In this document: piece by piece, positions 2,696 to 24,287 of the stretch
How positions within the stretch are numbered: the stretch's first letter is position 1
Layout of the letters: each line of letters starts with the position of its first letter
Source: Rhodanobacter thiooxydans
Lineage (GTDB): Bacteria > Pseudomonadota > Gammaproteobacteria > Xanthomonadales > Rhodanobacteraceae
Direction: 5' to 3'
NCBI RefSeq assembly: GCF_021545845.1
Contig: NZ_CP088923.1
Location: 3,596,001 to 3,660,000 of the forward strand
Length of the DNA stretch: 64,000 bases
Notes under the pieces: model-generated
Database searches by the model: none
Told to the model about the DNA's origin: nothing
The model's input: only the letters and a program-made list of their open reading frames with translations
Made by a program: the position numbers and the translations under genes

Positions 2696-2707
2696 TCTTT
2701 CAGTGCA

Positions 2708-4980: not shown

Positions 4981-5421
4981 CTAGTCAGAAGCCGCATCAA
5001 TGATGTGCATTCGCACCTCACCGAGCAATGGTTCTCTGAAGTATGAGATGCGCCAGTCCTTGTACGTGGAGTACGGACTGCTCACCATGTCGACACCGCG
5101 AGCTACCAGTTCCGAATAGGTACGTTCGACGTCATCGACCCCGAAGCCAATGTGATAGAAGCCTTCCCCATGTTCCTTCAGGTGGCGGTGCAGCTCACTG
5201 TCCGCGGCTACCGGTGCTACCACCTCGAGATTCATGTTGGCCAATCTGAAAATGGCTACTTCCGCACCGCGGCTCGGAACGGGCCCGCGTTCACCAACCT
5301 TGATGCCGAGCAGCCTCTCGAACCGTGCCACGGCCCGGTTAAGATCAGCCACCACGAACGCCAGGTGATGGACCCGGTCGATGGTTGGCGAAGCTTCCAT
5401 TTGACTGGCCTCTGTGGTCAC
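4981..5421 (-). CDS. VOC (glyoxalase/epimerase) family protein
   Basis: A 146-residue single vicinal-oxygen-chelate domain most like methylmalonyl-CoA epimerases. It has the N-terminal VHHLAFVVADLNRAVARFE strand-helix unit with the first metal histidine, NLEVVAP supplying an acidic ligand, and FYHIGFGVDDVERTYSEL with the second histidine, ending in VRMHIIDA. Epimerases of this type invert an alpha carbon next to a CoA thioester; that this copy acts on a CoA intermediate of the island pathway is inference. It is the last gene of the minus-strand operon, 6 bases after the regulator. VOC domains also serve as dioxygenases and lyases, so the reaction is open. Confidence 0.75.
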   Translation of the reverse strand: MTTEASQMEASPTIDRVHHLAFVVADLNRAVARFERLLGIKVGERGPVPSRGAEVAIFRLANMNLEVVAPVAADSELHRHLKEHGEGFYHIGFGVDDVERTYSELVARGVDMVSSPYSTYKDWRISYFREPLLGEVRMHIIDAASD

Positions 5422-5427
5422 GATGCC

Positions 5428-7281
5428 TCAATTGATCTGATTTTGCTTCAGGCGCCGCCATAGCGTGGTCGGACTGATACCAAGATATTCGGCGGACTCG
5501 GATCGCTTGCCCCCGAACATCTTCAATACCCGAGTGATCTCCTCCAGTTCGACGTTCTTGAGGTGACCCTGGGCTGCACTTTCACTGCTGTTGTCAGTGT
5601 AGATTTCCGGCGCCAGACGCGGCAGGTAATCCACGATGGCCTGGCTGCTTTGGTAAAGCTGGCCTGACACGACCAGCCGCTCGATGAGGTTCTCCAACTG
5701 GCGCACATTTCCCGGCCAGTGGTAACCACGGAAAATCGGTGAGAGCCCATCCACCAGGACATCCACGTCGATGCTGACACGGTATTTTGCAACCGCGCGG
5801 CGCGCCATGTAGCCGGTCAGCATGACGATGTCCTCCGGGTGCTCGCGCAATGGCGGCATGCGGATGCGGAAGGTATTGAGCCGATAATAAAGATCTTCCC
5901 TGAAGCGGCCGGCATGCATCTCGGCTGCCAGATCGACGTTGCAGGCAACGATGAACTTGACGTCCAGGGGTATTGCCTTGCGCCCGCCGACTGGCATCAC
6001 CTCCATTTCCTGCAGCACCCGCAGCAACTTCGCTTGGTGTGCCAGGCACAACGAATTGATCTCGTCCATGAAAAATGAACCGCCATTGGCCGCCTCAAGC
6101 AGCCCGGATCGGCCACCGCTCTTGGCGCCGGTAAACGCGCCGTCCAGGTAGCCAAACAACTCCGACTCGAACAAATCGACCGGGATAGCCGAACAATTCA
6201 CCGTGACAAACGGGCCGCTGGCGTGGTCACTGGCAGCGTGCACCGCGCGCGCTGCCAACTCCTTGCCGGTTCCGGTCTCGCCATGCAACAGGACGATGCG
6301 GGCGCTGGCACCGTAGACGTCCAGCAGCTTCTGCACTTCGGCCATGGACTGCGACCGGAACACCAATCGCCGACTGTCACTGGGAACCTCGGCAGGCTGG
6401 CTGAGCTCGAAGCGATAGGCATATATCGGGGTACCGTCAGCAAGCTCCAGCACGTCCTTGCTGACCACGCACGGACGAGTGCCAAGCATCGTCTGCTCGG
6501 CATGCAGGCGCGGCGCGTCGAGTAGCTGCTTGTCGAGGATGCCTTCCAGGCGCTGTCGCTTGGCGAAGCGCGGAATCTGCGACAGAGCCGCGCTGTTCGA
6601 AGCCATCACGGAGCCGTCCCGTGCGGTGAAAACAGTGGGGCACGAGCTGCCATCGAGGGCTAGTCGCAACAATGATTCCTGCTGGCGCTGGTGAGCGTGT
6701 TGCCCGGCCCAGCGAATCGCCTTGTGCAGCAGGGCGCGACAGGAAGTGCGTGAATAAATCAGTACCGAGCTGATGTTCCACTGGTCTGCAAGATCGCAGG
6801 CATAACTCGAACCGATGACCACACCGTAACCCTCGTTGCGATGTCGGTGGAATATTTCCTTGATCTCTTCGGCCGTCGTGTAGGTGCAGTGCAGGACTTC
6901 GATATCATCGAACACCTTCAGCACGTCGAGGTCGTTCTCCTGGCGTTCGTAGGTCAGCAGCAGGATTCGCCGCGAAATGCGCCGCGCCGTCAGGACCGCA
7001 TGGATCAGATCCGCCGAGGTGACCTTGAGGCCAACGACAGGTACCGACAGGGTGTCCTTCAAATAGAACGAGTTCGCCCCGGCACTGACGAAGACATCGA
7101 CCTGCTGCGCCTCCACCAGCTCCTGTGCCGAGCGCACGGCATCACTGAACAGGCGATCGATGACTGTGATTCGCGCGACACCGCGAAACTCGTCCACCAC
7201 GCTGTGGATCACTTGGGTGAACTTGGAATTGCCAATGACGCATACGCGCGGCCGGCTCAGATTGTCAGCACTGAATCCCAC
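5428..7281 (-). CDS. Sigma-54-dependent transcriptional activator with PrpR-type sensor domain
   Basis: A 617-residue enhancer-binding protein. Residues 1-180 resemble the PrpR N-terminal sensor (PRVCVIGNSKFTQVIHSVV..., FVSAGANSFYL, VPVVGLKVTSADLIHAV), a PAS-like part follows (about 200-300), then the AAA+ domain with Walker A GETGTGKE, the sigma-54 contact loop GAFTGA, Walker B GGSFFMDEI and arginine-finger region FREDLYYRLN. The C-terminal Fis-type helix-turn-helix is RSESAEYLGISPTTLWRRLK. PrpR itself responds to 2-methylcitrate, so a dicarboxylate or CoA-derived effector is plausible. I chose GTG 7281, preceded by GGAGG at a 6-base spacing, over an upstream ATG at 7329. Its likely target is the sigma-54 promoter at the head of the same operon. 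Confidence 0.9.
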   Translation of the reverse strand: MGFSADNLSRPRVCVIGNSKFTQVIHSVVDEFRGVARITVIDRLFSDAVRSAQELVEAQQVDVFVSAGANSFYLKDTLSVPVVGLKVTSADLIHAVLTARRISRRILLLTYERQENDLDVLKVFDDIEVLHCTYTTAEEIKEIFHRHRNEGYGVVIGSSYACDLADQWNISSVLIYSRTSCRALLHKAIRWAGQHAHQRQQESLLRLALDGSSCPTVFTARDGSVMASNSAALSQIPRFAKRQRLEGILDKQLLDAPRLHAEQTMLGTRPCVVSKDVLELADGTPIYAYRFELSQPAEVPSDSRRLVFRSQSMAEVQKLLDVYGASARIVLLHGETGTGKELAARAVHAASDHASGPFVTVNCSAIPVDLFESELFGYLDGAFTGAKSGGRSGLLEAANGGSFFMDEINSLCLAHQAKLLRVLQEMEVMPVGGRKAIPLDVKFIVACNVDLAAEMHAGRFREDLYYRLNTFRIRMPPLREHPEDIVMLTGYMARRAVAKYRVSIDVDVLVDGLSPIFRGYHWPGNVRQLENLIERLVVSGQLYQSSQAIVDYLPRLAPEIYTDNSSESAAQGHLKNVELEEITRVLKMFGGKRSESAEYLGISPTTLWRRLKQNQIN

Positions 7282-7367
7282 GAGCCACCTCCGTATCCAA
7301 CATCCACAACCCGATGCAAACGCCCCCAAGCCTTCAACGCAGCCGGTTATCTGAAGCTAGCATGCCG

Positions 7368-8003
7368 TCAGCGAAAAACCCATGGCTCGTTCAGCTGACG
7401 TGTCACCTCGTAGGCACGAATCGCATCGGCCATCGTCAAGGTCTCGCCGATGTCATCGAGCCCATGCAGCAAGTTGTGCTGGCGCCCTGGATCAAGCTCG
7501 AACACCAGCCGGGTATCACCCAACACCAGTTCCCTGCGAGCCACATCGATGCTCGCCGTCATGCCCGGGGACGGAAGGCACTGCGCGAACAGTCGATCAA
7601 TCACGGATTGTTCCAGGCGGATCGGCAAGACTCCGTTGTTGAAACAGTTATTGAAGAAGATGTCGCCGAAACTTGGCGCAAGGATCACGCGTACCCCGAA
7701 ATCACGCAGCGCCCAAACCGCGTGCTCCCGACTTGAACCACAACCGAAATTGGCCTGTGTCAAGACCACCGAGGCCCCGCGATATGGCGCCTGATTGAGC
7801 ACGAAATCCGGATTCTCGCGTCGGCTCCCCGGCGGCGTATCAAGCTCACCGGAGTCAAGGTAGCGCTCGTCATCGAACAGGAACACGCCAAAGCCGTGCG
7901 ACTCCAGGCTCTTCAGGTACTGCTTCGGCAACAGCACGTCGGTGTCGATGTTGGCGCGATCGATCGGAACGACAACGCCCTCGTGGTGGGTCCATGCCTG
8001 CAT
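7368..8003 (-). CDS. leuD: 3-isopropylmalate dehydratase small subunit-like hydratase subunit
   Basis: A 211-residue LeuD-type swivel-domain subunit of the aconitase superfamily. Visible motifs are VPIDRANIDTDVLLPKQYLK at the start, NFGCGSSREHAVWALRDFG (substrate-binding GSSREH loop) and FGDIFFNNCFNNGVLPI. With the large subunit encoded 1 base upstream it should form a (de)hydratase of an alkylmalate/alkylmaleate. Length fits LeuD (about 200-215). There is no leuA or leuB nearby and the gene sits in a catabolic operon, so I infer a substrate other than isopropylmalate (for example a substituted maleate), although motifs alone do not exclude leucine synthesis. Confidence 0.85.
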   Translation of the reverse strand: MQAWTHHEGVVVPIDRANIDTDVLLPKQYLKSLESHGFGVFLFDDERYLDSGELDTPPGSRRENPDFVLNQAPYRGASVVLTQANFGCGSSREHAVWALRDFGVRVILAPSFGDIFFNNCFNNGVLPIRLEQSVIDRLFAQCLPSPGMTASIDVARRELVLGDTRLVFELDPGRQHNLLHGLDDIGETLTMADAIRAYEVTRQLNEPWVFR

Positions 8004-8004
8004 A

Positions 8005-9417
8005 TCAGAGCTCCCTCACGTCAGCGAGCGCGCCCGCGATCGCCGCGGCTACCGCCATGGCCGGCGACATCAGGTGCGTGCGGCCACCTCGTCCCTGGCG
8101 CCCTTCGAAATTGCGATTGGAGGTGGAGGCACAGCGTTCGCCCGGTTTGAGCCGGTCGGGGTTCATGCCAAGACACATCGAGCAGCCCGGTTCACGCCAC
8201 TCAAAACCGGACGCAAGGAACACTTTATCAAGGCCCTCGCGCTCGGCCTGCAGCTTGACCATCCCTGAGCCGGGCACCACGAGTGCCCGCTTTACTCGGG
8301 CATGCACGTGATGACCCCGCGCCAGGTCTGCCGCCAGCCGAAGATCCTCGATGCGCGAGTTGGTGCAGGACCCGATGAACACCTTGTCGACTGGCGTACC
8401 GGCAATCGGCTGCCCCTCCTCCAACCCCATGTAGGTGAGAGCGCGGCGCCACCCGTCGCGTTGGGTATCGTCACGGGCGCTCTCCAACAACGGGACGCGC
8501 CCATCGATCGGGACAACCATTTCCGGCGACGTTCCCCACGTAACGCACGGCGGCACGTCACCCGCCGCGATGACGACCCGTCGGTCGTATTGCACGCCAG
8601 GGTCGCTGTGCAAGCCCGCCCAATACGCCCTTGCCCGCCCCCACATCTCGCCAACTGGCGCATATGACCGCCCACGCACGTAGGCTTCGGTCACCGCGTC
8701 GTAGCCGATCAGACCGACCCGCGCTCCGGCCTCGACGCTCATGTTGCACAGGGTCATCCGTGCCTCCATCGACGCGGCTTCAACTGCCGTCCCGCGAAAC
8801 TCCATCGCGTGCCCGCTGCCGCCTCCAGTGCCGACCAGGCCGATGACATGCAAGGCCAGATCCTTGACTCCTGCACCGGGAGCAAATTGCCCGTTGACCT
8901 CGACCGCCATGTTCTTGAGCTTGCGGCAGCGCAGCGTCTGCGTGGCCAGCACGTGTTCGACCTCGCTGCTGCCCACGCCGTAACCGAGCGTGGCCAGCGC
9001 CCCGTGCGTAGTCGTGTGCGAATCGCCACAGGCAACGGTCATGCCGGGCAGCGTCAGACCCTGTTCCGGTCCCACAATGTGTACGATGCCCTGACGCGGA
9101 TCATTCAGCCTGAACATGGGCACCGTGAATTCGGCGCAGTTTTTTTCGAGCGTCTCCACCTGCAGTCGCGCAAGTGGATCGGTGAACCCCGCCAGGCCCT
9201 GAACCCGACCCTCGGTCGGCACGTTGTGATCCGGCATCGCGATGGCGGAGCTACGGCGCCATGGAGCACGGCCGGCCCGGCGCAAATTGGAAAAGCCCTG
9301 TGGCGAAGTAACCTCGTGCAGCAGTTGCAGATCGATGTAAACCAGGCTCGAACCATCTGCCAGGTCGGCCACGTGATGGCTGTTCCACAGTTTGTCGTAG
9401 AGAGTCATCGGAGTCAT
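8005..9417 (-). CDS. leuC: 3-isopropylmalate dehydratase large subunit-like hydratase subunit
   Basis: A 470-residue LeuC-type protein carrying the [4Fe-4S] cluster. Cluster cysteines are in [14 protein letters not shown] and in [11 protein letters not shown]. The active-site stretch [13 protein letters not shown] and the [20 protein letters not shown] loop are intact. Close agreement with the E. coli-type LeuC throughout suggests true hydratase activity. The pair leuC-leuD stands between a lipoprotein gene (6 bases away) and the regulator, with no other leucine genes, so it probably hydrates a pathway intermediate of the island such as citraconate, dimethylmaleate or a larger alkylmaleate. 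That assignment is inference from context. Confidence 0.87.
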
Positions 9418-9423
9418 GGTGCG

Positions 9424-9789
9424 TTACCTATACGGAACCCATTGATACAGCTCACGCCGGCTCGGGTCGAGCCGGCGATATCCGCAATAGCTGTCCAGGC
9501 GCCCACCCGAAAGCGGCACGATCATGCAGTTCGGAAGCTCGCAGTCGGCTGCGTCGATGGCCTGGGCCGAAAGTTGCGCACGTGCTGCCAACAATTGTCG
9601 TTCGGACGCAGCCACGCCGGAGTCGGCAACACTGGCGCGGAAGTGATTGACCCACGTCCGCACGTAGGCATGGCAGACCTCGCCGCCAGCCAGCGGTGGC
9701 GTCGCCACGACACGCGGTGGCGGAACGGCAGCGCAGGCACTCAGCACTGCTGCCGCCACGCTAAGAATCGAACAGCGCCAGACATTCAT
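9424..9789 (-). CDS. Small predicted lipoprotein
   Basis: A 121-residue protein starting MNVWRCSILSVAAAVLSACA: a short basic start, hydrophobic core and lipobox LSAC, so it should be lipidated and face the periplasm. I chose ATG 9789 behind GGAG; the longer frame would put charged residues ahead of the signal. It overlaps the end of the amidase gene by 29 bases, indicating translational coupling. The mature part contains four further cysteines (EVCHAYV, ADCELPNCM, SYCGYRR) that could form disulfides. I do not recognise a family, and the position within the operon is the only clue to its role. Confidence 0.65.
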   Translation of the reverse strand: MNVWRCSILSVAAAVLSACAAVPPPRVVATPPLAGGEVCHAYVRTWVNHFRASVADSGVAASERQLLAARAQLSAQAIDAADCELPNCMIVPLSGGRLDSYCGYRRLDPSRRELYQWVPYR

Positions 9790-10354
9790 CAAGCTCCACC
9801 ACGTCCGCATACTTGAGTTGCAAGTCACGCAGGTTGGCCTCGTGCGCCGCCGCGTCACGATCGCCCACCGCCTGGCGCGGGACTAGCACGCGCAAATTGT
9901 TCTGCAGCGCGTCCAATGCCGTGGCGCGCACACAACCGCTGGTAGTCAACCCGGTTACCACCACGCCATCCACGCCGGCGGCGTACAACCGCCCAGCAAG
10001 GTCGGTGCCGAAGAATCCACTGGCGCCGTGCTTGACGATCACCAGTTCGCCCGGTGCCGGTTGCACGCGGGGATCGATCTCCACCAACGGCGATCCCGCA
10101 ACATGGTCATCCAGCGCAGGCAGCTTCTCACGGAATACGCTCGCCTGCGCTGGATCGTCATACATGAGCCTCGTGTAGAACACAGGGGCGCCCATTGCGC
10201 GAAAACTTTCCAACAAGCGCTGGTTGGCCTCAATGACCTCGTCGCACTCGCTGCCCAGCCGGCTGCGTACGGGGTCGGTAAAACCGATGGTGAGATCGAC
10301 CAGAATCAGCGCGTAGCGCTTTGCCCGTCGCAACTCTCTCGATTCAAGTGCCAT
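9761..10354 (-). CDS. Isochorismatase-family amidohydrolase (N-carbamoylsarcosine amidase-like)
   Basis: A 197-residue cysteine hydrolase of the isochorismatase fold. The catalytic triad is visible: Asp in ALILVDLTIGFTD, Lys in IVKHGASGFFGTDLAG and Cys in VTGLTTSGCVRATALDA, with the usual cis-peptide region before the cysteine. The GASGFFGTDL wording is that of N-carbamoylsarcosine amidase and maleamate amidase relatives, which release ammonia from carbamoyl or half-amide substrates. It follows hyuB by 15 bases. Together with the HyuA/HyuB ring-opening enzymes it suggests two-step breakdown of a cyclic amide or imide; the exact substrate is unknown. Confidence 0.85.
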   Translation of the reverse strand: MALESRELRRAKRYALILVDLTIGFTDPVRSRLGSECDEVIEANQRLLESFRAMGAPVFYTRLMYDDPAQASVFREKLPALDDHVAGSPLVEIDPRVQPAPGELVIVKHGASGFFGTDLAGRLYAAGVDGVVVTGLTTSGCVRATALDALQNNLRVLVPRQAVGDRDAAAHEANLRDLQLKYADVVELDECLALFDS

Positions 10355-10369
10355 GTCTCCCCCCTCTGC

Positions 10370-12223
10370 TCAGGTCCACATTGGCGTAACCGGCGCCGGC
10401 AATCCGGTATCGGCCATGCAGCGCTCCTTCAACTCGGCAATCGTCCCGCCGCGATTGAACAAAGTGATCGGCGGACGCTTCCTGCCCATCTCGGCACGCA
10501 AACCGACAGTAGCCGACTCGTCGACGGCATCTGCCTCGATGACCACGCCATAGCGGCGCGCGCCGTCCACCGTGACCAAGCCCTTGCGTACATCCGCCAA
10601 TACCTTGGCTGGATCGCGCTCGAGCGGATCACCCCAGCCACCGGCGCCCCAGGTATCGAAGTACAGCAAGTCGCCGGCCTTGATCTGCACGCGGTCACAC
10701 TTGGACGGCAGAATCTGGCGGGTACCATCCGTGCGCACCAGCTCCTTGCGACTACGCTGGCCCGGCTCACCACCATTGACGCCCCACGGGTGGGTCAACC
10801 AACGATCGTCGTGGATGGAAACCTCGCCATCGGCCAGCAGGCGATACACGACCCGCAAGCCATTGCCGCCGCGATGCAGGCCGGCGCCTCCGGAATCGGC
10901 AATCGTCTCGTAGGTTTCCATGCGCAGCGGGAAATACGCTTCGACGAACTCGTTCGGTACGTTGGTGAAGCCCGGCCACAACGAGTGCCCATCCGGTCCG
11001 TCACCGGCAGGTCGACCTGGAATACCACCGAAACCGATCTGGAACAGCTGGAACCACTCGCCATTGGCATCGTATCCGGAATACATGAGGTGCGGCGAAT
11101 CCGAGAAACCGGCCGCGTTCATGGCTTGCGGCGAACCCTGGCCAAGCAGGCCACCCATGACGTCGAACAGGCGGCCGAGCAGGTGAGTGCGACACGATAC
11201 GGCCGCCGGAAAGTTCGGGCGAAGAATCGAACCCTTCGGAATCCGGACTTCGACGAGGTCGTAGAAGCCGTCGTTGAGCAGGATCGCCGGATCGAAGAGG
11301 CTGATCGTCAAGGCGCCGAAGAAGATCTTGAACATTTCCTCGTTGAGATAGAAGTTCACTGAAGACGGTGCTTGTGGATCGGTGCCTTCGAAATCGAAAA
11401 TCGCCTTGTCACCCTCGCGCCAGAGCGCGCAGCGCAAGGTGTATGGGCCGTGGCCGGCGCCATCGTCACAGATGTAGTCCTCGAAGGTCTGCTGCTGCAC
11501 CGGAATCACCCGCTGGATGATCTCCTTCATCGCGCGGTGGGTGCGCTCGAGCATCATCTGCTGAGCGCTGTAAAACCCGTCGTCGCCAAAACGCTCGGCC
11601 AATTCCACGCAGCGCCGACCGGCACTGCGACAGGCGGCCACCAGCGCATTGAGATCGGAGTGATTCCAGCGCGGCACGCGCACGTTGTGCAGAATCACAT
11701 CGAGCATGTCGGCGTTGAGGTTGCCGGCACGGTAAAGCTTGACTGGTGGAATCCGGATACCCTCCTCCCACACGGTACGCGAGTCGGTCGGCAGGCTGCC
11801 CGGCACCTTGCCACCCACGTCGGTCATGTGGCCGAACATAGCCGCGTAATTGATCAGGCGGCCATCCTTGAAGACCGGCAGCAGTACCAACCAGTCAGGC
11901 ATGTGACTGACCGCCCCATTGCACATGTACGGATCGTTGGTGAGAAATACATCTCCATCCTCGACCGTACCTTCATAGGCGTCCAGCAGACCCGCGATAA
12001 ACGAGCCAAACTGACCCACCAGCATTTTGCCGTCGGCCCCGGCAATGATCGGAAACGCATCGCCCTGTTCACGGATGCCGGGGCTCATCGCGGTGCGAAA
12101 CAGTACGGTATCCATCTCGCTGCGCGCGTTGGCAAGGGCGTTCTCGATGATGTCCACGGTAACCGCGTCCACTTCAACGCGGCGCAAGGGTTCGGAATGA
12201 CTTTGAATGATACGTGCGCTCAC
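10370..12223 (-). CDS. hyuB: Hydantoinase B/oxoprolinase family protein
   Basis: A 617-residue HyuB-type subunit. Typical stretches are the N-terminal VDAVTVDIIENALANARSEM, LFRTAMSPGIREQGDAF, the DVFLTNDPYMCNGAVSHMPD segment, IFDFEGTDPQA and the glycine-rich SGGAGLHRGGNGL. Members act with a HyuA ATPase subunit in ATP-dependent cleavage of cyclic amides (N-methylhydantoinase, 5-oxoprolinase) or in ATP-dependent carboxylation (acetone or acetophenone carboxylases). There is no third small carboxylase subunit gene here, which favours the hydrolase reading, though weakly. It overlaps hyuA by 4 bases (ATGA). Confidence 0.88.
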   Translation of the reverse strand: MSARIIQSHSEPLRRVEVDAVTVDIIENALANARSEMDTVLFRTAMSPGIREQGDAFPIIAGADGKMLVGQFGSFIAGLLDAYEGTVEDGDVFLTNDPYMCNGAVSHMPDWLVLLPVFKDGRLINYAAMFGHMTDVGGKVPGSLPTDSRTVWEEGIRIPPVKLYRAGNLNADMLDVILHNVRVPRWNHSDLNALVAACRSAGRRCVELAERFGDDGFYSAQQMMLERTHRAMKEIIQRVIPVQQQTFEDYICDDGAGHGPYTLRCALWREGDKAIFDFEGTDPQAPSSVNFYLNEEMFKIFFGALTISLFDPAILLNDGFYDLVEVRIPKGSILRPNFPAAVSCRTHLLGRLFDVMGGLLGQGSPQAMNAAGFSDSPHLMYSGYDANGEWFQLFQIGFGGIPGRPAGDGPDGHSLWPGFTNVPNEFVEAYFPLRMETYETIADSGGAGLHRGGNGLRVVYRLLADGEVSIHDDRWLTHPWGVNGGEPGQRSRKELVRTDGTRQILPSKCDRVQIKAGDLLYFDTWGAGGWGDPLERDPAKVLADVRKGLVTVDGARRYGVVIEADAVDESATVGLRAEMGRKRPPITLFNRGGTIAELKERCMADTGLPAPVTPMWT

Positions 12224-14295: not shown

Positions 14296-14345
14296 AACTA
14301 CCCCATTTACGTGTTTCGGGTTTCATTGAGAAAAACAGGCAGCGC

Positions 14346-15596: not shown

Positions 15597-15610
15597 GAGT
15601 CTGTTCTCCT

Positions 15611-17284: not shown

Positions 17285-17296
17285 GATCATCTCCCC

Positions 17297-19681
17297 CTAA
17301 TAGGTGTCAGTCAGGATCGGCTCGATGGAAGACGCCAGTCTCGCTTTCTTGAAAATGAAATCCGGCTTGAAAACCAAAGCGAGGGACGGCATGACGTACA
17401 GCGCGGTAAAGGCCGACGTCATCAGCCAGATACCAATCAGAATTCCCATTTCCGCCTGGAAACGCAGCGACGACCAGGCCCACAACAACACGCCGGCAGC
17501 CAGCACCAGCGCAGTCAAAGCCACCCCACGACCAGCCGAACCCAGCGTCTGCCGAACTGCTTCTTCGGGCGTCGCCTGCGGGTTGTTTTCGAGGTGTTCC
17601 TTGATTCCGTCGACGATGTAAAAGGCGTAATCGACGCCCAGCCCGATGCCGAGCGCAACGACCGGCAGGGTGCTGATGCTCATGCCAATGCCATGCCATG
17701 CCATGAAGGCAAAGGTCACCACATTGGAGATCAGCACGGGGACGATGAAGAACACGCCACTGACCGAGGTTCGGTACGCCACCAGGCAACACAGGACAAC
17801 CACCAGAAACGCCAGGGCGATGGCTTTCACCTGATCACGCAACACGATTTCATTGACCGCCGCGATGTTTCCGAGCACCCCGCCGGCGAGGCGCGCCGTC
17901 GCATGTGCAAGTGGATTTTCGTCGATGAACGTACCTGCGTTGTGAATTGCCTGGCGCAGTGTTTCTCCCCTGCGATCGTGGAAGAACATGGTGACGGCGC
18001 CGTTCTGGAACTGCACGTCGGTAAACTGGTTCAGGTCACCCGGGCTGGATCCCTGCATGTAGAAGTTGATCAGCTCCCCGTTCTCCAGCGCGTCGGCCCC
18101 AAGCTCCCGGTATCGGGGATTGCCCTCATGCAGGTTTCTGCGGATATCCACGACAATATCCGCCAGCGAGATGCTTCCGCCGATTTCCGGTTGGCGTTCC
18201 ATGTACCGCGAGAATCTGAGCATCCAGTCCAGCACTTCCGGACTCTTGAGTGCGTCAGGGGCATCTCCTTCCACGGCGACGAACATCTGCTCGGAGCCCG
18301 GATACTTGCTGTTGATCAGGGCGCTGGCCTGGTTGAAGGCGGAGTCTTGCCGCAAGATCGGCGAGCCCGCACTTGCGTCACCCACGGTCAGCCGCGTGGC
18401 TTCGAAGAAGAAGACCGCCAGCAGAAGCGCGGTAAGCGGTGCCACGAAGTAGCGTGCCCGGGTCGTCACCACCCACGTGGCGGAATGCGTGAAGATGGCC
18501 AGGATCCCTTCCAGCCGGACCGAGTGGACGTATCGATCGGGGCGCTTGATCCACGACAGCAGAACCGGGGTCAGCACCACGGCGGAAACCGTAATCGTCA
18601 TGACCCAGATCGAGCCGACGATGGCCACTTTGTGCATCAGCGGTATTGGCGTGATGATGACGCAGAGGACCGCGCCCGCATCCGCCCACAACCCGAGCAT
18701 GCCGGGGCGAAACAATTCGCGCATCGATTCCTGTGCGGCTGCTCGCGGCTCGACGCCGCGGCCCACCGTGAGATCATCAAATCGCGTGATCAGCTGGACC
18801 GAATGTGAAAATGCGCGCGCCGTGATGATGAAGGCGACGACAATCACCAGTGGATCGAAGTTGTAACCGAGCAGTGAGCCGATGCCGAGCGCCCAGGTGG
18901 CGGAAACCAGCCCCGCGATCAAGGGCAGCAGCGTGCCTCGCCATGTCCGGGTGATCATGAAGAGCAACACCAGCATCGCGACCAGCGAGAGCAGCGCGAT
19001 CGAGACGGTTTCACCAAGATAGTGCGCGACCCAGCCGTAGAGGATGGGTTCTCCGACGACATGCAAACTGACCTGATCCTTGATCGGGGACGAATCCAGG
19101 ATCTTCTGCACCTGCGGAAAGATCTTCTTGTAGTCCACCAGGTGGTCGTAAAAGTCCACCTGTATCAGTGCCGAGCCAAGATCCCGGTCGACATACAAGC
19201 CATACACCATGGGGCTGTCCAGCACCGCTTGCCGCAAGGTGTCGATTTCCGCCTGGTTTTTCGGCAAATTCGGCCACATCAGCGTTCGCGTCTCGATGCC
19301 TTCACTCGACGCCTCGATACGCTTCAGCTTGCTCGATGCCAGGGATGTGATCTGGGACTGGTTGACACCGGTCACAGTCTGCATCTCGTCGGTGATGCGC
19401 TTGATTTCGCCGAGCACCGGCAGGGTGAAGATGTTTCCGTCCACGGCGCGTACCAGCACCGTGACGCGATTGGCAGCCGCGAACGTGTCCTGGTACTTCT
19501 CGTATATTTTCACGTACGGGTGATTCTGCGGAATCATGTCACCGAAGCGCGATTGAATGTCCAGCCTGGTCAGGCTTGCGGCGAAGAACGTGGTAATCAG
19601 CGCAATGACAATGCATACCTTGACGCGATGTCGAATCGCGTAAGTTGAAATGATTACAGCGAGGTCGATTGGGTTCTTCAT
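17297..19681 (-). CDS. RND/MmpL-type transporter
   Basis: A 794-residue inner-membrane protein of the RND superfamily, of the shorter MmpL/HpnN-like class with two repeats. After a first helix (residues 20-40) comes a periplasmic loop, then a helix block at about 230-390 (SIALLSLVAMLVLLFMITR and the following helices), a second periplasmic loop, and a second block at about 620-780 containing VVALGIGLGVDYAFYIVDG, the conserved RND helix with the proton-relay Asp. The start MKNPIDLAV overlaps the YCF48 stop as ATGA, behind GAGGGG. This RND class with YCF48, DUF1302 and DUF1329 recurs in clusters for steroid-like, terpenoid and other lipophilic compounds; whether it imports or exports cannot be read here. 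Confidence 0.88.
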   Translation of the reverse strand: MKNPIDLAVIISTYAIRHRVKVCIVIALITTFFAASLTRLDIQSRFGDMIPQNHPYVKIYEKYQDTFAAANRVTVLVRAVDGNIFTLPVLGEIKRITDEMQTVTGVNQSQITSLASSKLKRIEASSEGIETRTLMWPNLPKNQAEIDTLRQAVLDSPMVYGLYVDRDLGSALIQVDFYDHLVDYKKIFPQVQKILDSSPIKDQVSLHVVGEPILYGWVAHYLGETVSIALLSLVAMLVLLFMITRTWRGTLLPLIAGLVSATWALGIGSLLGYNFDPLVIVVAFIITARAFSHSVQLITRFDDLTVGRGVEPRAAAQESMRELFRPGMLGLWADAGAVLCVIITPIPLMHKVAIVGSIWVMTITVSAVVLTPVLLSWIKRPDRYVHSVRLEGILAIFTHSATWVVTTRARYFVAPLTALLLAVFFFEATRLTVGDASAGSPILRQDSAFNQASALINSKYPGSEQMFVAVEGDAPDALKSPEVLDWMLRFSRYMERQPEIGGSISLADIVVDIRRNLHEGNPRYRELGADALENGELINFYMQGSSPGDLNQFTDVQFQNGAVTMFFHDRRGETLRQAIHNAGTFIDENPLAHATARLAGGVLGNIAAVNEIVLRDQVKAIALAFLVVVLCCLVAYRTSVSGVFFIVPVLISNVVTFAFMAWHGIGMSISTLPVVALGIGLGVDYAFYIVDGIKEHLENNPQATPEEAVRQTLGSAGRGVALTALVLAAGVLLWAWSSLRFQAEMGILIGIWLMTSAFTALYVMPSLALVFKPDFIFKKARLASSIEPILTDTY

Positions 19682-20661
19682 TGCTGCCCCTCGGCCGGCC
19701 ATGCACGATATTCATTCAGGCTGACTAGTTGACCTATTTCGTGCCCGACCAATACGGATTTCTGCCGCGCGGGAAGCACGCGCATGTAATACCTCCTGCT
19801 CAAGTTGTCGGCGTGCACGCGTTGCCACTTCAGCGCGTCACGGTAGGCACTGAACACCGTCCCTTGTTCACCAACCGCGATCCAGCCGTCCTGCTTGGCG
19901 ACAACGTCATAGAAATGGTCCGTGGTCAGCTCGGGCAGGAGCGTCCAGTCATGCCCCGCGTTGCCGCTGCGGTAGATATGCCCCCGGTTGCCGACGATCA
20001 CCCCGACGTCGCCCGCAAAGGCGATGGACTGCAAGCTCTCGCCGTCGAGCTCGATCAGCTCCCAGGTGGCACCCTCGTCGTCACTGCGCAGCAGTCTTCC
20101 CGCCTCGGCGGTGATCCACAGCGAATGGCCCGGGCCGGAGCGAATGCGATTGAGCACGATGTCTTCCGGCGCGCGCATTCGTGTCCATGACTTGCCGTCT
20201 GCGGAGCCGCGAAACACCGCGCCCATCTCGCCGACCACCCAGAAATTCCCGTCCAGGAAAGCGGCATCGATAAGTTTGCGGGCGACATTGCCGAGCGGTA
20301 GTTCCTGCGTCGTCCACTCTTCGCCGTTTTCGCGGACCCAGAGGCGCCCGTCATTGCCCACCACCACCAGGGTGCCGGCGTCGCTGGCTGCTATCGCCTG
20401 CAGGTTTTCGCGAGGCTCAAGCAGAGTGCGCTGCCAGCTTCCGGTTTTCTGGTCCATGGTCAACAACGCCCCGTCCTGACCAACAAACCAGTAGTGCTGT
20501 CCATCATCGACACCGCCTAGAAACTGGTCACGCTGTTCGATCAGAGGTTGCGCCATGGACGTGGTCTTGACGTCGATCTGCACGAAGACCGCTGCGTAAC
20601 CAAGCGCCGCAATCAGGAGCCAAGGCGAGAGCCGGGCAAGCACACTCCAAAGTCGTGCCAT
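19678..20661 (-). CDS. YCF48/BNR-type beta-propeller protein with membrane anchor
   Basis: A 327-residue protein. It begins MARLWSVLARLSPWLLIAAL, an N-terminal anchor or uncleaved signal, followed by about seven blades of the YCF48 (Hcf136-like) propeller with the recurring pattern GxxGxxxxSxDxGxTW: WFVGQDGALLTM, VVVGNDGRLWVRENGEEW, WVVGEMGAVFRGSADGKSW, LRSDDEGATWELI, GVIVGNRGHIYRSGNAGHDW, AVGEQGTVFSAYRDALKW. Such propellers are scaffolds and assembly factors; next to RND genes they are probably periplasmic partners of the transporter. The start shares one base with the lyase stop (TGATG), so translation is coupled. Confidence 0.85.
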   Translation of the reverse strand: MARLWSVLARLSPWLLIAALGYAAVFVQIDVKTTSMAQPLIEQRDQFLGGVDDGQHYWFVGQDGALLTMDQKTGSWQRTLLEPRENLQAIAASDAGTLVVVGNDGRLWVRENGEEWTTQELPLGNVARKLIDAAFLDGNFWVVGEMGAVFRGSADGKSWTRMRAPEDIVLNRIRSGPGHSLWITAEAGRLLRSDDEGATWELIELDGESLQSIAFAGDVGVIVGNRGHIYRSGNAGHDWTLLPELTTDHFYDVVAKQDGWIAVGEQGTVFSAYRDALKWQRVHADNLSRRYYMRVLPARQKSVLVGHEIGQLVSLNEYRAWPAEGQQ

Positions 20662-21584
20662 CACGCCAGCCTCCCGGCTTTCTGGGTCGCCTGGCGTTTC
20701 AGCCAGTTGTATGCGTGTCCGCCCAGCGGGGAACCCAGCAATTCGCTGCAATGGTCAACCACCGCGACCAGGGCCAGCGGATCGATGCCTGTGCGCAGGC
20801 CCATCGATTCGATCATCAACACAACATCTTCGGTGGCCACGTTGCCGCTCGCTCCCGGAGAGAAGGGGCATCCGCCCAGACCACCGATCGAGCTGTCGAA
20901 AGCGCGTATGCCCTCGTCAAGCGCGGCAAGTACGTTCGCCAGTGCCATGCCTCGTGTGTCGTGAAAGTGGCAGGCAATCCGCTCCGCGCCGTAACTCGCC
21001 ACCAGGCGGGAAATCAGCAGATGGACCTGGGCCGGGTTGGCCGCACCTATGGTGTCGGCGACGATCAGCTTGTCAGCGCCGGCTTCGATCATCTTTGCGG
21101 CAAGACGCTCTACCCGGGCGACGGGAGTCTCACCCTCAAACGGACATTCGTACGCGACGGCCAGATAGGCCCAACCTTGGATGTCATCCTCTCTGGCGCG
21201 GCGCATCAACTCTGCGCAGATCACCGTCGTCTGTTCGAGACTCAGGTTGATGTTGCGCCGGTTCATGGTTTCGGTAGCAGACAGGACCACCGACAACGTA
21301 CGCGCGCCCGCCACGCTCGCCAGTTCATAGCCACGCGCATTCGGGATCAGCGCCGAGTAACGGACCAGGTCCGGGCGTGGCAACTGTGCGAACACCGCCA
21401 CCGTGTTGGCCATTTGCGGAACGGCCTTGGGCGAGACGAAACTGCCTGCTTCGACGCTGCGCAAGCCGGCGTCGACCAATGCCTGAATCATGGTGATGCG
21501 CTCGGCGACGTCGAGCACGCGTGCCTGGTTCTGCAACCCATCCCGGGGGCCAACCTCATTGATGACCACGTCGACGGTGCTCAT
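20661..21584 (-). CDS. Hydroxymethylglutaryl-CoA lyase-type enzyme
   Basis: A 307-residue TIM-barrel lyase of the HMG-CoA lyase family, which cleaves 3-hydroxyacyl-CoA dicarboxylates to acetyl-CoA or another acyl-CoA and a keto acid. Catalytic features are present: VGPRDGLQNQ (Arg-Asp), metal histidines in CHFHDTRGMALAN and the cysteine loop GGLGGCPFSPGASGNVATED. I start at ATG 21584, one base after the CoA-transferase stop; the longer frame overlaps that gene. With the CoA-transferase it forms an activate-and-cleave pair. HMG-CoA, citramalyl-CoA and larger alkylmalyl-CoA are all candidate substrates, and the sequence does not decide among them. Confidence 0.87.
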   Translation of the reverse strand: MSTVDVVINEVGPRDGLQNQARVLDVAERITMIQALVDAGLRSVEAGSFVSPKAVPQMANTVAVFAQLPRPDLVRYSALIPNARGYELASVAGARTLSVVLSATETMNRRNINLSLEQTTVICAELMRRAREDDIQGWAYLAVAYECPFEGETPVARVERLAAKMIEAGADKLIVADTIGAANPAQVHLLISRLVASYGAERIACHFHDTRGMALANVLAALDEGIRAFDSSIGGLGGCPFSPGASGNVATEDVVLMIESMGLRTGIDPLALVAVVDHCSELLGSPLGGHAYNWLKRQATQKAGRLA

Positions 21585-21585
21585 C

Positions 21586-22785
21586 TCAGGCCACCACTTT
21601 GCGGTCGCGCAGCGCTGCGACCTTGTTGCGCGCATACCCAAGGACATCGACAAGCACCGATTCCGTATGCTCACCCAGGAGTGGTGGCGCGCCGAAGTCA
21701 TCCGCCGCGTCGAGGGACAACTTGATCGGATTGCCCGGTGCCTCGACCGTTTCGCCGCTCGGCTGCGGGATGCTGACCACCATGTTCCGGTGCAGGACCT
21801 GCGGATCGGACAAGGCTTCGCTGAACTGATTGACCGGTGCACAAGGGATGCGCGCCGCACTGAGCTTCTCTACCCAATACGCTGTGCTCTGAGTACCAAT
21901 CGCCTCGTCCAATTTCTGGTCGATGAACGCCTTGTCAGCCAGCCTCCCGGGTTGCGTCTTGTACTTCTCGGCGCGAAATTCGTCTATGTCAAGCAGATCA
22001 ACGAGACTTGCCCAAAAACTGTCGTAAATCACGGCGACGATGACGAATCCGTCAGCCGTCCGGTAAGTGTTGTAAGGGACATGAACGAAATGTCCGTTGC
22101 CCAGTGGCTCGGGGTTTTCGCCGCTCATCAAGTGCATGGTTGCCATGTAATTCAACATGCTTATCTGGCAATCCAGCATGCTGATGTCTACATGCTGGCC
22201 CCGCCCATGCGATGCGCGCGCCTGGAGTGCGGCGAGTATTCCCATCACCGCGAACATGCCTCCACCCAAATCGCCAATCGGTATTCCCGAGCGCATCGGC
22301 CGGTCGGGACTTTCACCCGTGATCGACATGCCGCCGCCAATACCCTGCACGACCTGGTCAAATGCCGGGCGCTTGTAATTTGGACCGTCTTGACCGAACC
22401 CCGAAATAGAGCAGGTAATGATTCGCTGGTTTATCTTGGCGAGGTGAGAATGGTCAATACGCAGTCTGGCAGTAACACCGGCACTGAAGTTGTCGATAAC
22501 AACATCCGCAGCACGTACCAGGTCGTAGAAAACCTGCAGGCCTTCCTCCTGCTTCAAATCAATGCAGACGCTTCTCTTTCCACGATTCAAGGTAATGAAA
22601 TAAGCACCCATGCCGTGGCGTGAATATTTCGCATTGTTGGCCAGCAAGGCGCGGGTGCCTTCGCCGCCAAGTGGCTCCACCTTGATCGAATCAGCACCAA
22701 GATCCGCCAGAATCATTCCGGCGTACGGACCCGAAAGCATATGCGTCAGATCCAATATGCGTATTTTTTCCAGTGCCTTGCTCAT
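21586..22785 (-). CDS. Class III CoA-transferase (CaiB/BaiF family)
   Basis: A 399-residue family III CoA-transferase, about the standard length. The N-terminal ILDLTHMLSGPYAGMILADL and ADSIKVEP, the YFITLNRGKRSVCIDL strand and the catalytic aspartate in RPAFDQVVQGIGGGM are all present, followed by GIPIGDLGGGMFAVMGILAA. These enzymes move CoA from a donor such as succinyl-CoA to a carboxylate through aspartyl intermediates. Being coupled to the lyase gene, it probably activates the hydroxydicarboxylate that the lyase cleaves. A 172-base gap with a hairpin separates it from the upstream NTF2-like gene, the longest gap in the operon. Confidence 0.9.
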   Translation of the reverse strand: MSKALEKIRILDLTHMLSGPYAGMILADLGADSIKVEPLGGEGTRALLANNAKYSRHGMGAYFITLNRGKRSVCIDLKQEEGLQVFYDLVRAADVVIDNFSAGVTARLRIDHSHLAKINQRIITCSISGFGQDGPNYKRPAFDQVVQGIGGGMSITGESPDRPMRSGIPIGDLGGGMFAVMGILAALQARASHGRGQHVDISMLDCQISMLNYMATMHLMSGENPEPLGNGHFVHVPYNTYRTADGFVIVAVIYDSFWASLVDLLDIDEFRAEKYKTQPGRLADKAFIDQKLDEAIGTQSTAYWVEKLSAARIPCAPVNQFSEALSDPQVLHRNMVVSIPQPSGETVEAPGNPIKLSLDAADDFGAPPLLGEHTESVLVDVLGYARNKVAALRDRKVVA

Positions 22786-22904
22786 GGCGGTTCGGCTTTC
22801 CTTTCAATTGGTACCGAGGCCCGACCGAAATCGGTACGGGGTGCAAGTAGAACCTCCGCGCCTGTCAGCACAGGAACGCGTTACTTGAGGGTGCAGTATC
22901 CCGA

Positions 22905-22932
22905 CCTTCCCCTGCCCGTCGGCAGGGGAAGG
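22905..22932. repeat. Perfect hairpin inside the operon (REP-like or attenuator)
   Basis: CCTTCCCCTGCC, a 4-base loop, then GGCAGGGGAAGG: a perfect 12-bp stem. There is no T-run on either side, so it is not a canonical terminator. It resembles the CCTCCCCTGC/GCAGGGGAGG palindromes elsewhere in this window. Placed between the NTF2-like and CoA-transferase genes it could damp read-through or protect the mRNA end. Confidence 0.7.
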
Positions 22933-22957
22933 CGCGACTCACTCATGCTTGTTCAGA

Positions 22958-23350
22958 TCAGGGTAGGACGCTGACGCCGTTCATGAACACGTAGTAGCGG
23001 AAGAACTTTCCGTTCCTGACGTAAAAGAAATTGCAATTCTTCATCGGCGGATCGAAAGTTCCGTCAGGCTTCTCCAGCGTGACATTGAAGCGCGTCGCCA
23101 CGGTCTGGTTTTCGGGATCGGCGGTGACTTCGAAATCACCGTGCCAAGTCCTTTTGTAGGTGGTGAACAGCGTCTCGAACATGTTGCGCACGCCCTCGAT
23201 GCCGTCGTGATCGTGATTGGCGGTCTGGACGGTCACCACGATGTCATCGTGCATGCACGCGAGCACGGCATCCATGTTCTTTTTGTCCACGTTTCCGAAA
23301 TAGCTGGTGACGGCAAGGTCGATCAATTGCTGACGGGTGAGCTTGGACAT
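22958..23350 (-). CDS. SnoaL/NTF2-like protein
   Basis: A 130-residue alpha+beta-cone protein of the NTF2 superfamily: helical start LTRQQLIDLAVTSYFGNVD, then MDAVLACMHDDIVVTVQ, TFDPPMKNCNFFYVRNGKFF and YYVFMNGV. Members of this fold work as isomerases, dehydratases, cyclases or bare binding modules for small hydrophobic substrates. No diagnostic catalytic pair can be named from the sequence alone. It is second in the operon, 17 bases after the racemase-fold gene. Confidence 0.75.
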   Translation of the reverse strand: MSKLTRQQLIDLAVTSYFGNVDKKNMDAVLACMHDDIVVTVQTANHDHDGIEGVRNMFETLFTTYKRTWHGDFEVTADPENQTVATRFNVTLEKPDGTFDPPMKNCNFFYVRNGKFFRYYVFMNGVSVLP

Positions 23351-23367
23351 TCAATTTCTCCAGTGGG

Positions 23368-24114
23368 TCAATTGGCGAAGCCGTGATACACAGCGTCATT
23401 TGGCGCCTGGGGCGCCGGGTAGGCCTTGCGGCTATGCCTTAGGCCCAGAGTCAAGAACATTTCGCACAACTTCCAGGCGACCTGGCCGGGATTGATCACC
23501 GGCACCGGCAGGCGTTCCGAAAGGTAGGTGTGGGACTGATGCATCGTGGTGGAACCCAGGACGATGACGTCTGCGCCGTCCTCCTTGATGGCCTTGCGCG
23601 CCGCGTCCTCCAACTTCTGGAAAACGACTTCCTCCTTGCCGGCAAGTAACTCTTCGAGATCCGGACGGGTGTTGATCGACCGCAGCGACGCCACCCGGGG
23701 CCACAGGTGATACGCGGTCAAGGTTTTTTCGTAGAGCGCAAACCACTCGTCCCACATCGTCAGCACAGTGAATTTCTTGCCCAACATGCATGCGACATGG
23801 AAAGCCGCGGCACCCGGCGCGATCACGGGTATATCCAGGCGCGAACGCAATGCATCCAGGCCGGAATCACTGACGGTATCGATACACACCGCCGCGTAGC
23901 CTTCCTCCTGCGCACGCAGGCCTGCCTCGACAACGGAAAAATCCATCAGCAGGGAGTCGTAGGCACTATCGCCAAGCGCAGCACCCTTGGCGACCGACAC
24001 GAATTCGGGCTCGAAACCGGGCAGTACCAGACGCGGCGGCAACTGCGAGGCCCGCGCGGCGACTCCTTCGGCACCCATGGGGATCGGGACAATGATCTTG
24101 ATTCGTTGAACCAT
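23368..24114 (-). CDS. Asp/Glu/hydantoin racemase-fold protein lacking both canonical cysteines
   Basis: A 248-residue member of the Asp/Glu racemase superfamily (hydantoin racemase, maleate isomerase, arylmalonate decarboxylase). The fold is clear: IKIIVPIPMGAEG at the start, VCIDTVSDSGLDALRSRLDI, VIAPGAAAFHVACMLGKKF and DVIVLGSTTMHQSHTYLSER. Where hydantoin racemases have the catalytic Cys in IACFDDPG this protein has Thr (DTVSDSG), and where they have VLGCAGM it has VLGSTTM. A cysteine lies three residues before the first site, so a shifted mechanism is possible. First gene of the operon; start ATG 24114 behind GGAG. Confidence 0.85.
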   Translation of the reverse strand: MVQRIKIIVPIPMGAEGVAARASQLPPRLVLPGFEPEFVSVAKGAALGDSAYDSLLMDFSVVEAGLRAQEEGYAAVCIDTVSDSGLDALRSRLDIPVIAPGAAAFHVACMLGKKFTVLTMWDEWFALYEKTLTAYHLWPRVASLRSINTRPDLEELLAGKEEVVFQKLEDAARKAIKEDGADVIVLGSTTMHQSHTYLSERLPVPVINPGQVAWKLCEMFLTLGLRHSRKAYPAPQAPNDAVYHGFAN

Positions 24115-24208
24115 TGTTTGACTTCTCCGCTTGTGCACCGCAAGCTATGCTGCAGCGCAGTAAAATGATCCGGAAGCTCAAAAATGCCGGCGGCGTCATG
24201 AGATTGCA

Positions 24209-24224
24209 GCAAGTTCAATGCCAA
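24209..24224 (-). promoter_or_regulatory. Sigma-54 (-24/-12) promoter of the island operon
   Basis: On the minus strand TTGGCATTGAACTTGC fits the consensus TGGCAC-N5-TTGC: the GG and GC dinucleotides are exactly 10 bases apart. Transcription would start near 24197, leaving a leader of about 80 bases before the first gene. The operon itself encodes a sigma-54 activator (5428-7281), which supports function. Confidence 0.8.
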
Positions 24225-24287
24225 GTCGGCATTTTCGTTCCTAATCAAATACTTGCTTGATTATCCGGCGAACTGCAAAAACACGTC

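Follow-up and report, generated by a model that had tools for sequence, protein, structure and literature searches.

The N-methylhydantoin (creatinine) pathway relies on an ATP-dependent N-methylhydantoinase and N-carbamoylsarcosine amidohydrolase. Anaerobic nicotinate breakdown employs dimethylmaleate hydratase, with LeuCD-type subunits, followed by dimethylmalate lyase, and cyclic imide metabolism combines an imidase, a half-amidase and enzymes of the tricarboxylic acid (TCA) cycle. Here we describe a sixteen-gene operon of Rhodanobacter thiooxydans, located in a stretch of 64,000 nt (the window; assembly GCF_021545845.1, contig NZ_CP088923.1, positions 3,596,001 to 3,660,000) of a 4.2-Mb genome in two contigs. 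The operon looks like an undescribed route from a hydrophobic nitrogen-containing ring to ordinary metabolites, and no description of the full gene set was found in the titles and abstract openings listed by searches of open-licence PMC papers. Our tentative reading, at somewhat less than even odds, is a catabolic operon under sigma-54 control whose substrate is a hydrophobic cyclic imide, in the simplest case a C-substituted maleimide.

Organisation of the operon

The sixteen open reading frames (ORFs) of the operon all lie on the minus strand and span 4981–24138. They are transcribed in the order AspRac, SnoaL, class III CoA-transferase (CoAT3), HMG-CoA-lyase-type lyase (HMGL), YCF48, RND, DUF1302, DUF1329, HyuA, HyuB, isochorismatase-fold amidase (IsoCh), small putative lipoprotein (hypLp), LeuC, LeuD, PrpR-like activator and VOC. 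Pfam matches were obtained for 15 of the 16 proteins, to the families already named by a model that had seen the sequence alone (the sequence-only reading). After correction of the starts by similarity, the junctions from AspRac to VOC measure 17, 172, 1, -1, -4, 6, 14, 50, -4, 15, -29, 6, 1, 38 and 6 nt. Twelve of the 15 do not exceed 17 nt, in agreement with the tight packing described before, and the longer ones separate SnoaL from CoAT3 (172 nt), DUF1329 from HyuA (50 nt) and LeuD from the PrpR-like gene (38 nt).

Putative ring-opening hydrolase and amidase

Phosphate and adenosine motifs of the ASKHA type are present in HyuA (DVGGTFTD at residue 8, DVGGTSTD at 290 and GASPGP at 354). In HyuB, the residues D55, H107, D110 and H132 are invariant in the ten sequences of alignment A1 and align with D, H, D and H of CapB. 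The ATP motifs and metal-site residues of caprolactamase CapAB served as the reference, as given in excerpts of PMC8453981. Among sequences of the Protein Data Bank (PDB), HyuA scored highest with N-methylhydantoinase (450 bits), followed by caprolactamase (351) and by carboxylase subunits with no more than 290, and HyuB ranked likewise, hydrolases first and then carboxylases. The NCBIfam equivalog cut-offs for CapA and CapB (1000 each) were not reached (497.7 and 199.1 bits), nor were those for acetone and acetophenone carboxylase (294.8 of 1500, 190.8 of 1250 and 123.7 of 1500), and Pfam gave no further carboxylase subunit family among the 16 operon genes.

The triad of IsoCh (D20, K108 and C141) lines up with five sequences from the PDB, including one Cys-to-Ala form, and the best PDB match of IsoCh is N-carbamoylsarcosine amidohydrolase. 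Asp-Lys-Cys is the catalytic triad of the N-carbamoylsarcosine/maleamate amidase clade. Judged by these motifs, HyuAB fits ATP-dependent ring hydrolysis and IsoCh fits amide hydrolysis, the roles of cyclic amide opener and amidase that the sequence-only reading had given them.

Putative hydro-lyase and CoA-dependent cleavage

LeuC possesses the Fe-S cysteine motifs GSCTN and GCSMCLG, and HMGL the signature motifs GPRDG, HFHD and GGCP. The best NCBIfam relatives of CoAT3 use dicarboxylates, all of them below the equivalog cut-off (the best, succinate–glutarate CoA-transferase, at 297.9 bits of 750), and in the PDB it matches succinate–hydroxymethylglutarate CoA-transferase. Elsewhere the host genome encodes a separate HMGL paralogue (44% identity) and a second LeuC that is 53% identical to the operon copy and is placed on the tree as sister to that of a Rhodanobacter metagenome-assembled genome (MAG), then to that of a Dokdonella MAG. 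Because of these second copies, the operon LeuC and HMGL are probably dedicated copies.

In LeuD of the window, SREHA is followed by V, not P, and a loop position is occupied by S in place of R. In the 24 cluster LeuD sequences the residue after SREHA is V in 16, A in two, T in one and P in five, and the loop position is K in ten, R in eight, S in five and A in one. In the 16 other LeuD sequences, which include L192 and L193 and are assumed to serve leucine synthesis, 15 have P (V in L193) and 15 have R (K in L192). The changes are suggestive of a substrate other than isopropylmalate but do not prove it. With a second LeuC in the genome and two differing LeuD residues, leucine biosynthesis was thought an unlikely role for the LeuCD of the window.

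In a LeuC tree of 42 rows, the 26 cluster members need six label changes, at least four of which are forced by well-supported branches, and the outcome was the same with 43 rows and 27 cluster members. The strict set leaves out L020 (LeuC ~15 kb from HyuA) and the farther LeuC copy of L016; the tree is without the short rows L191 (the cluster copy of Rhodanobacter), L097 and L163 (Azospirillum), and four of 34 LeuC matches are not included in the set. LeuC of the window and its counterparts from seven clusters with the same order form one group (8 rows, support 96/94). On this tree, cluster LeuC is several lineages and not a single one. Repeated recruitment is the likelier reading, which falls short of proof because gains and losses cannot be separated.

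Conservation of the gene set

In a class-level sample of 274 genomes, HyuB matches at E <= 1e-80 occurred in seven including the window's own, four of the others at 64–70% identity and two at 35–36%; two low-identity HyuB loci have no lyase step, IsoCh or hydratase nearby. Here the lyase step means HMGL plus CoAT3, or an ICL/PEPM-family protein, and the hydratase means LeuC or MmgE/PrpD. From a contig scan with alignment A1, the best 80 named loci of 588 relatives were compared; more exist. The loci were selected for resembling HyuB of the window, and their descent is not independent. Proteins of the window are matched in these 80 loci as follows: HyuA 79, CoAT3 61, IsoCh 57, HMGL 57, PrpR 28, LeuC 26, LeuD 24, VOC 22, YCF48 11, RND, DUF1302 and DUF1329 10 each, lipoprotein 9, SnoaL 5 and AspRac 3.

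The lyase step lies within ~10 kb in 45 of the 53 loci of at least 20 kb, IsoCh is present in 39, the hydratase in 24 and all three in 17. Each of the three was found in none of 29 control windows, of which two contain CoAT3 alone and one PrpR. Twenty of the controls are spaced 20-kb windows taken from three genomes; the other nine adjoin clusters and are those of twenty flanking stretches that have no cluster part and no AspRac. LeuCD, the CoA-transferase and HMGL therefore occur with HyuAB far beyond the host genome, and the unit proposed by the sequence-only reading is borne out in this respect.

The order HMGL-YCF48-RND-DUF1302-DUF1329-HyuA-HyuB-IsoCh-LeuC-LeuD is kept in nine of the 80 loci (L026, L027, L029, L030, L031, L033, L034, L035 and L037), from Pseudomonas, Halopseudomonas, Alloalcanivorax, Vreelandella, Dokdonella, Rhodanobacter and Ectothiorhodospiraceae. 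In L026, genes for a short-chain dehydrogenase (SDR) and a Zn-dehydrogenase are inserted and HMGL and CoAT3 lie on the adjoining stretch L125, while L037 has an inserted EamA gene and its PrpR gene further off; a tenth locus, L094, has the same families in a different order. Minimal clusters (L039, L045, L048, L049 and L053) consist of PrpR, a TonB receptor, CoAT3, HMGL, HyuA, HyuB, IsoCh, LeuC and LeuD. Between the first and the last of these, a listing that includes unrelated ORFs from 180 aa upwards shows no oxidoreductase.

Two adjacent genes for OYE-type flavin reductases, a family assigned by Pfam for one member and by PDB for another, are situated within the cluster or close to it in seven of ten mapped genomes. 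In Pseudomonas MYb185 and Halopseudomonas they stand exactly between SnoaL and CoAT3, the site of the 172-nt gap of the window (22786–22957). No orthologue of the pair was found in the host genome (best match 35%), so that a pair hidden elsewhere in it was rejected. FAD-binding, Zn-dependent alcohol dehydrogenase (Zn-ADH) and luciferase-like enzymes recur in some relatives.

Two further observations concern the relatives themselves. A sphingomonad HyuAB cluster carries a gene whose annotation reads REDY-like protein HapK (L010:11692-12012) and a methyltransferase gene with a small partner (L010:12095-13683). The MAG that contains HyuB locus L065 bears the label Klebsiella pneumoniae, which may be wrong in view of its company of environmental relatives.

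Exchange of modules in other bacteria

The following gene names are the products annotated in the records. ICL/PEPM-family genes replace the CoA-transferase and HMGL in some bacteria, and they adjoin them in two Comamonadaceae, in a run of PrpR, CoAT3, HMGL, a transporter protein and ICL/PEPM without HyuAB. Neorhizobium petrolearium has MmgE/PrpD, 'oxaloacetate decarboxylase', HyuB, HyuA, a cysteine hydrolase, a hypothetical protein, an FAD oxidoreductase and two AspRac genes, its HyuAB being known by annotation. In Tistrella, a frame of similar make-up includes ICL/PEPM but lacks HyuAB, and elsewhere there is a run of CoAT3-HMGL-NIPSNAP-isochorismatase. The Azospirillum stretch contains an FAD oxidoreductase, LeuC/LeuD-like genes (aconitase family and 3-isopropylmalate dehydratase) and then ICL/PEPM, again with no HyuAB. 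Acidiphilium has one run of HMGL, isochorismatase, two deacetylase-family genes, LeuC and LeuD, and another of CoAT3, HyuA, HyuB and isochorismatase with a divergent HMGL; the first deacetylase-family gene matches PuuE allantoinase. The sphingomonad locus L014 encodes a PuuE-like protein, and L014 and L016 share that family as well as the ICL/PEPM family. ICL/PEPM lyases cleave alkylmalates, dimethylmaleate hydratase is of LeuCD type, and PuuE-like imidases exist. Hydratase and lyase types thus interchange, in a manner that would suit an alkylmalate.

Regulation

The activator of the operon contains a GAFTGA loop at residue 397 and is named PrpR-like because its score against TIGR02329 (436.8 bits) does not reach the equivalog cut-off of 499.2. 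On its own, the promoter-like site at 24208–24223 is no more than chance window-wide (11 sigma-54-like hits with up to two mismatches, against 15 expected), and what supports it as a putative promoter is the presence of like-placed sites in some relatives. For the strict pattern TGGCA-N6-YTGC, the background is 0.0097 per 400 bp when every locus is counted and 0.0135 in the control windows. This pattern stands upstream of four of 13 AspRac genes tested (two of the 13 are second copies), those of the window, Rhodanobacter, Dokdonella and Pseudomonas 080ASC, the relatives' sites lying on stretches L106, L107 and L108. Where CoAT3 is apart from SnoaL, the strict site precedes CoAT3 in five of six relatives (G276, G277, G278, G280 and G282), in a count that leaves out G284; where CoAT3 directly follows SnoaL it was found in neither of two (G274 and G275). 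The 172-nt gap of the window also has no strict site, and a second sigma-54 promoter there was rejected. Further strict sites precede one of three OYE genes and, in 16 TonB-type clusters, four CoAT3 genes and one TonB gene. The activator and the like-placed sites support sigma-54 control of the operon, which the sequence-only reading had put forward from the window.

Transport genes

The window holds all four protein families of AmeABCD together. In Castellaniella defragrans, according to excerpts of PMC6394551, AmeABCD (DUF1302, DUF1329, COG4447/YCF48 and HAE3-type RND) is an exporter of monoterpene detoxification and lies among monoterpene genes, whereas the block of the window sits among ring- and dicarboxylate-type enzymes; the likeness is at family level. 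All four families occur in only ten of the 80 loci and a TonB-receptor-type family (one member checked by Pfam) in 37, and the transport half is therefore optional. It had been asked earlier whether the two halves of the operon might be unrelated: this is rejected for the nine loci in which the order is kept, and more widely the block is an optional module. In the Rhodanobacter locus L026 the transport block is 31–49% identical to window positions 14346–20661, against 73–88% from HyuA to VOC, as if the cassette had been exchanged in place as a unit.

AspRac

AspRac has T and S at two positions that are Cys in hydantoin racemase 3qvj. The mechanism of hydantoin racemase uses two catalytic cysteines, and the Thr/Ser replacement is seen in all 12 sequences of alignment A2, window included. 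A hydantoin racemase role was rejected for want of both cysteines, and the racemisation or isomerisation once assigned to AspRac is not upheld. All 12 sequences share a cysteine that stands three residues ahead of the Thr. Orthologues with 65–92% identity occur in ten of 18 genomes searched, that of Pseudomonas 080ASC being ~28 kb from HyuB. In the tandem AspRac genes of Neorhizobium and Tistrella the first copy also reads Thr/Ser and the second is divergent. Window positions 23368-24114, L159:11995-13421 and L158:12004-13466 represent a subfamily that has the motif GSTTMH and is devoid of racemase cysteines.

Composition and borders

The GC content is 0.602 over 4981–24226 and 0.674 in the right flank and 0.722 at 1–2600. 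It is thus lower than on both sides, as stated in the sequence-only reading, whose IS66 remnant and pseudogene were also found as borders (Table 1). The truncated enoyl-CoA hydratase ORF upstream is likely a pseudogene. That reading lacked a group II intron at the 3′ end of the operon, with Rfam domains RF00029 at 2604–2697 and RF02003 at 4376–4514.

Table 1. Genes of the operon, its putative promoter and bordering features (positions in the window)
Feature	Position	Strand	Basis or remark
Putative sigma-54 (-24/-12) promoter, TGGCATTGAACTTGCT	24208-24223	-	~95 nt before the first gene's ATG
AspRac, Asp/Glu/hydantoin-racemase fold protein	23368-24114	-	PF01177; start corrected
SnoaL-like protein	22958-23350	-	PF12680; adjoins AspRac in relatives
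Class III CoA-transferase (CoAT3)	21586-22785	-	PF02515; PDB matches
HMG-CoA-lyase-type lyase (HMGL)	20661-21584	-	PRK05692 336.6 bits, subfamily cut-off 246; start corrected
YCF48-like protein (AmeC-like)	19678-20661	-	PF14870
MMPL/HAE3-type RND transporter (AmeD-like)	17297-19681	-	PF03176; best NCBIfam match HAE3, 159 bits against a cut-off of 351.9
DUF1302 protein (AmeA-like, outer membrane)	15611-17290	-	PF06980
DUF1329/LolA-like periplasmic protein (AmeB-like)	14346-15596	-	PF07044
HyuA, ATP-binding subunit of ATP-dependent hydantoinase/lactamase-type hydrolase	12220-14295	-	PF01968, PF05378
HyuB, metal-site subunit	10370-12223	-	PF02538
Isochorismatase-fold amidase (IsoCh)	9761-10354	-	PF00857
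Small putative lipoprotein (hypLp)	9424-9789	-	Relatives in 9/80 loci; start corrected
LeuC-type hydro-lyase, large subunit	8005-9417	-	TIGR00170 658.5 bits, cut-off 560
LeuD-type small subunit	7368-8003	-	TIGR00171 213.1 bits, cut-off 116
PrpR-like sigma-54 activator (PrpR_N, AAA+, Fis HTH)	5428-7329	-	PF06506, PF00158, PF02954
VOC/methylmalonyl-CoA-epimerase-like protein	4981-5421	-	PF13669; epimerase score 64.6, below cut-off 115
IS66 fragment	inside ORF 1727-2473	+	48 residues matched; 3′ side of operon
Group II intron	2604-4514	-	Between IS66 fragment and operon, just past last operon gene
Reverse transcriptase of group II intron	2708-4060		Lies inside the intron
Truncated enoyl-CoA hydratase ORF	24625-25500	+	5′ side of operon; profile 5-126 of 251

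Proposed pathway and alternatives

Which ring would such an operon open? We infer the step order, the substrate class and every reaction of the imide pathway from the sequences. HyuA would phosphorylate the ring amide with ATP and HyuB would hydrolyse it to a half-amide, from which IsoCh would free ammonia to leave a cis-dicarboxylate (alkylmaleate). The LeuCD-type hydro-lyase would hydrate alkylmaleate to alkylmalate, the class III CoA-transferase would form the CoA thioester of the latter, and the HMG-CoA-lyase-type enzyme would cleave it to acyl-CoA and an oxo acid. The PrpR-like activator may sense a pathway intermediate, and the AmeABCD-type RND system would handle the hydrophobic substrate, probably exporting its excess. 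The scheme does not give AspRac, SnoaL or VOC a function. The predicted activities of the minimal clusters, which list no redox enzyme, could take a substituted maleimide to acyl-CoA, oxo acid and ammonia for one ATP. Taken as one account of all the parts, the imide pathway would be the simplest; the hydantoin, six-ring and lactam readings stand beside it with lower probability.

Several points weigh against the imide pathway. The natural substrate of HMGL is of the 3-hydroxyglutaryl-CoA type, with one carbon more than a malyl-CoA. The hydratase is nearby in only 24 of the 53 loci, and seven of the 80 have neither hydratase, lyase step nor IsoCh, five of them on stretches of 4.5–15.5 kb and two (L090 and L099) on more than 20 kb. 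Among eight plasmid loci the lyase step occurs in only five, IsoCh in three and the hydratase in two, so the HyuAB family does not go with a single pathway. The P after SREHA is kept in five of 24 cluster LeuD sequences, and V also occurs in non-cluster L193, a third LeuD copy in G277. The cluster LeuC of G284 is the only LeuC match in its genome and may therefore serve leucine synthesis. As to regulation, no strict sigma-54 site was found in the stretch tested before the CoAT3 gene of G281, nine of 13 AspRac genes and 12 of 16 CoAT3 genes of TonB-type clusters. Finally, the best PDB matches of HyuA, HyuB, IsoCh and AspRac are all hydantoin-pathway proteins.

This last point leads to the hydantoin pathway itself, in which HyuAB would open a 5-substituted hydantoin, the amidase would remove the carbamoyl group, the racemase-fold protein would handle the other enantiomer, and LeuCD, the CoA-transferase and HMGL would degrade the carbon skeleton after deamination. 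In its favour, the best PDB match of HyuA and HyuB is N-methylhydantoinase, that of IsoCh N-carbamoylsarcosine amidohydrolase and that of AspRac hydantoin racemase. We consider it unlikely, given that both racemase cysteines are replaced in 12 of 12 AspRac sequences, that the 16 operon genes include no family of transaminases or amino-acid dehydrogenases, and that the product would offer LeuCD no cis-dicarboxylate to hydrate. Another lactam or N-heterocycle (pyrrolinone, oxindole-like or dihydropyrimidine-like), whose ring the flavin enzymes of the relatives would prepare, appears unlikely: although the OYE-type pair occurs in seven of ten mapped relatives, some also have FAD-binding, Zn-ADH and luciferase-like enzymes, and the HyuAB family includes caprolactamase and the hydantoinase-like hydrolase IaaCE, the host genome is without an orthologue of the pair, the minimal Alteromonadales-type clusters list no oxidoreductase, and a simple lactam leaves IsoCh no amide. 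It is quite unlikely that a six-membered ring is the substrate, with a substituted glutarimide or glutaconimide giving 3-substituted glutaconate and then 3-hydroxyglutarate, to be CoA-activated and cleaved by HMGL like HMG-CoA. HMGL does exceed the HMG-CoA-lyase subfamily cut-off, and CoAT3 matches the transferases for succinate–hydroxymethylglutarate and succinate–glutarate (298 bits, cut-off 750). LeuCD-type enzymes, however, act on vicinal cis-dicarboxylates, and LeuCD accompanies HyuAB in several LeuC lineages, yet glutaconate is not such a compound. Very improbable, in our view, is a carboxylase role, in which HyuAB would carboxylate a hydrophobic ketone for CoA activation and HMGL cleavage, the amidase being incidental. 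Acetophenone and acetone carboxylase subunits are homologous to HyuAB, and AmeABCD is known from monoterpene metabolism (excerpts of PMC6394551), but the scores of carboxylase subunits fall well short of those of hydrolases, the 16 genes include no additional carboxylase subunit family, and 39 of 53 loci have IsoCh.

For the imide pathway, one natural source of substrate may be considered. Maleimides are regarded as degradation products of tetrapyrrole pigments (excerpts of PMC8669743) and are thus a plausible environmental substrate. Those derived from tetrapyrroles would suit the proposed chemistry. It is distinctly unlikely, however, that the operon, together with its minimal counterparts from marine Alteromonadales and Halieaceae, serves to use beta,beta'-disubstituted maleimides derived from chlorophyll, haem and other tetrapyrroles, with no redox step; in that case ATP-dependent imide opening and deamidation would be followed by hydration to dialkylmalate and CoA-dependent cleavage to acyl-CoA and a 2-oxo acid. 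Pfam recognised no tetrapyrrole-related gene among 57 representative neighbour proteins, a part of all neighbours.

Comparison with known systems

The enzyme classes of the operon are already known, and what emerges is a modular pathway common to Alpha- and Gammaproteobacteria with parts in Betaproteobacteria. It provides a starting point for genes whose annotation goes no further than hydantoinase/oxoprolinase or a spare leucine enzyme. Should the substrate be an imide, cyclic-imide metabolism would gain an entry that depends on ATP and an exit that depends on CoA; should it be a tetrapyrrole-derived maleimide, the fate of the pyrrole rings of chlorophyll and haem would be shown.

The N-methylhydantoin pathway uses the same two enzyme families as HyuAB and IsoCh, which are also their best PDB matches. 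The operon adds LeuCD, the CoA-transferase and HMGL after the ring and amide steps, whereas that pathway has an amino-acid route. CapAB of Pseudomonas jessenii is likewise a two-subunit ATP-dependent ring hydrolase, with which the ATP motifs and metal residues of HyuAB align (excerpts of PMC8453981); the equivalog cut-offs are not reached, however, and caprolactam yields an amino acid without a second amide. As in nicotinate breakdown, a dialkylmaleate would be hydrated by LeuCD-type subunits and then cleaved, but the cleavage would use the CoA-transferase and HMGL, unlike the dimethylmalate lyase of that pathway. Cyclic imide metabolism shares with our proposal the logic of imide to half-amide to dicarboxylate. 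The proposal differs from it in the ATP-dependent HyuAB opener and in an acid that needs hydration and retro-aldol cleavage.

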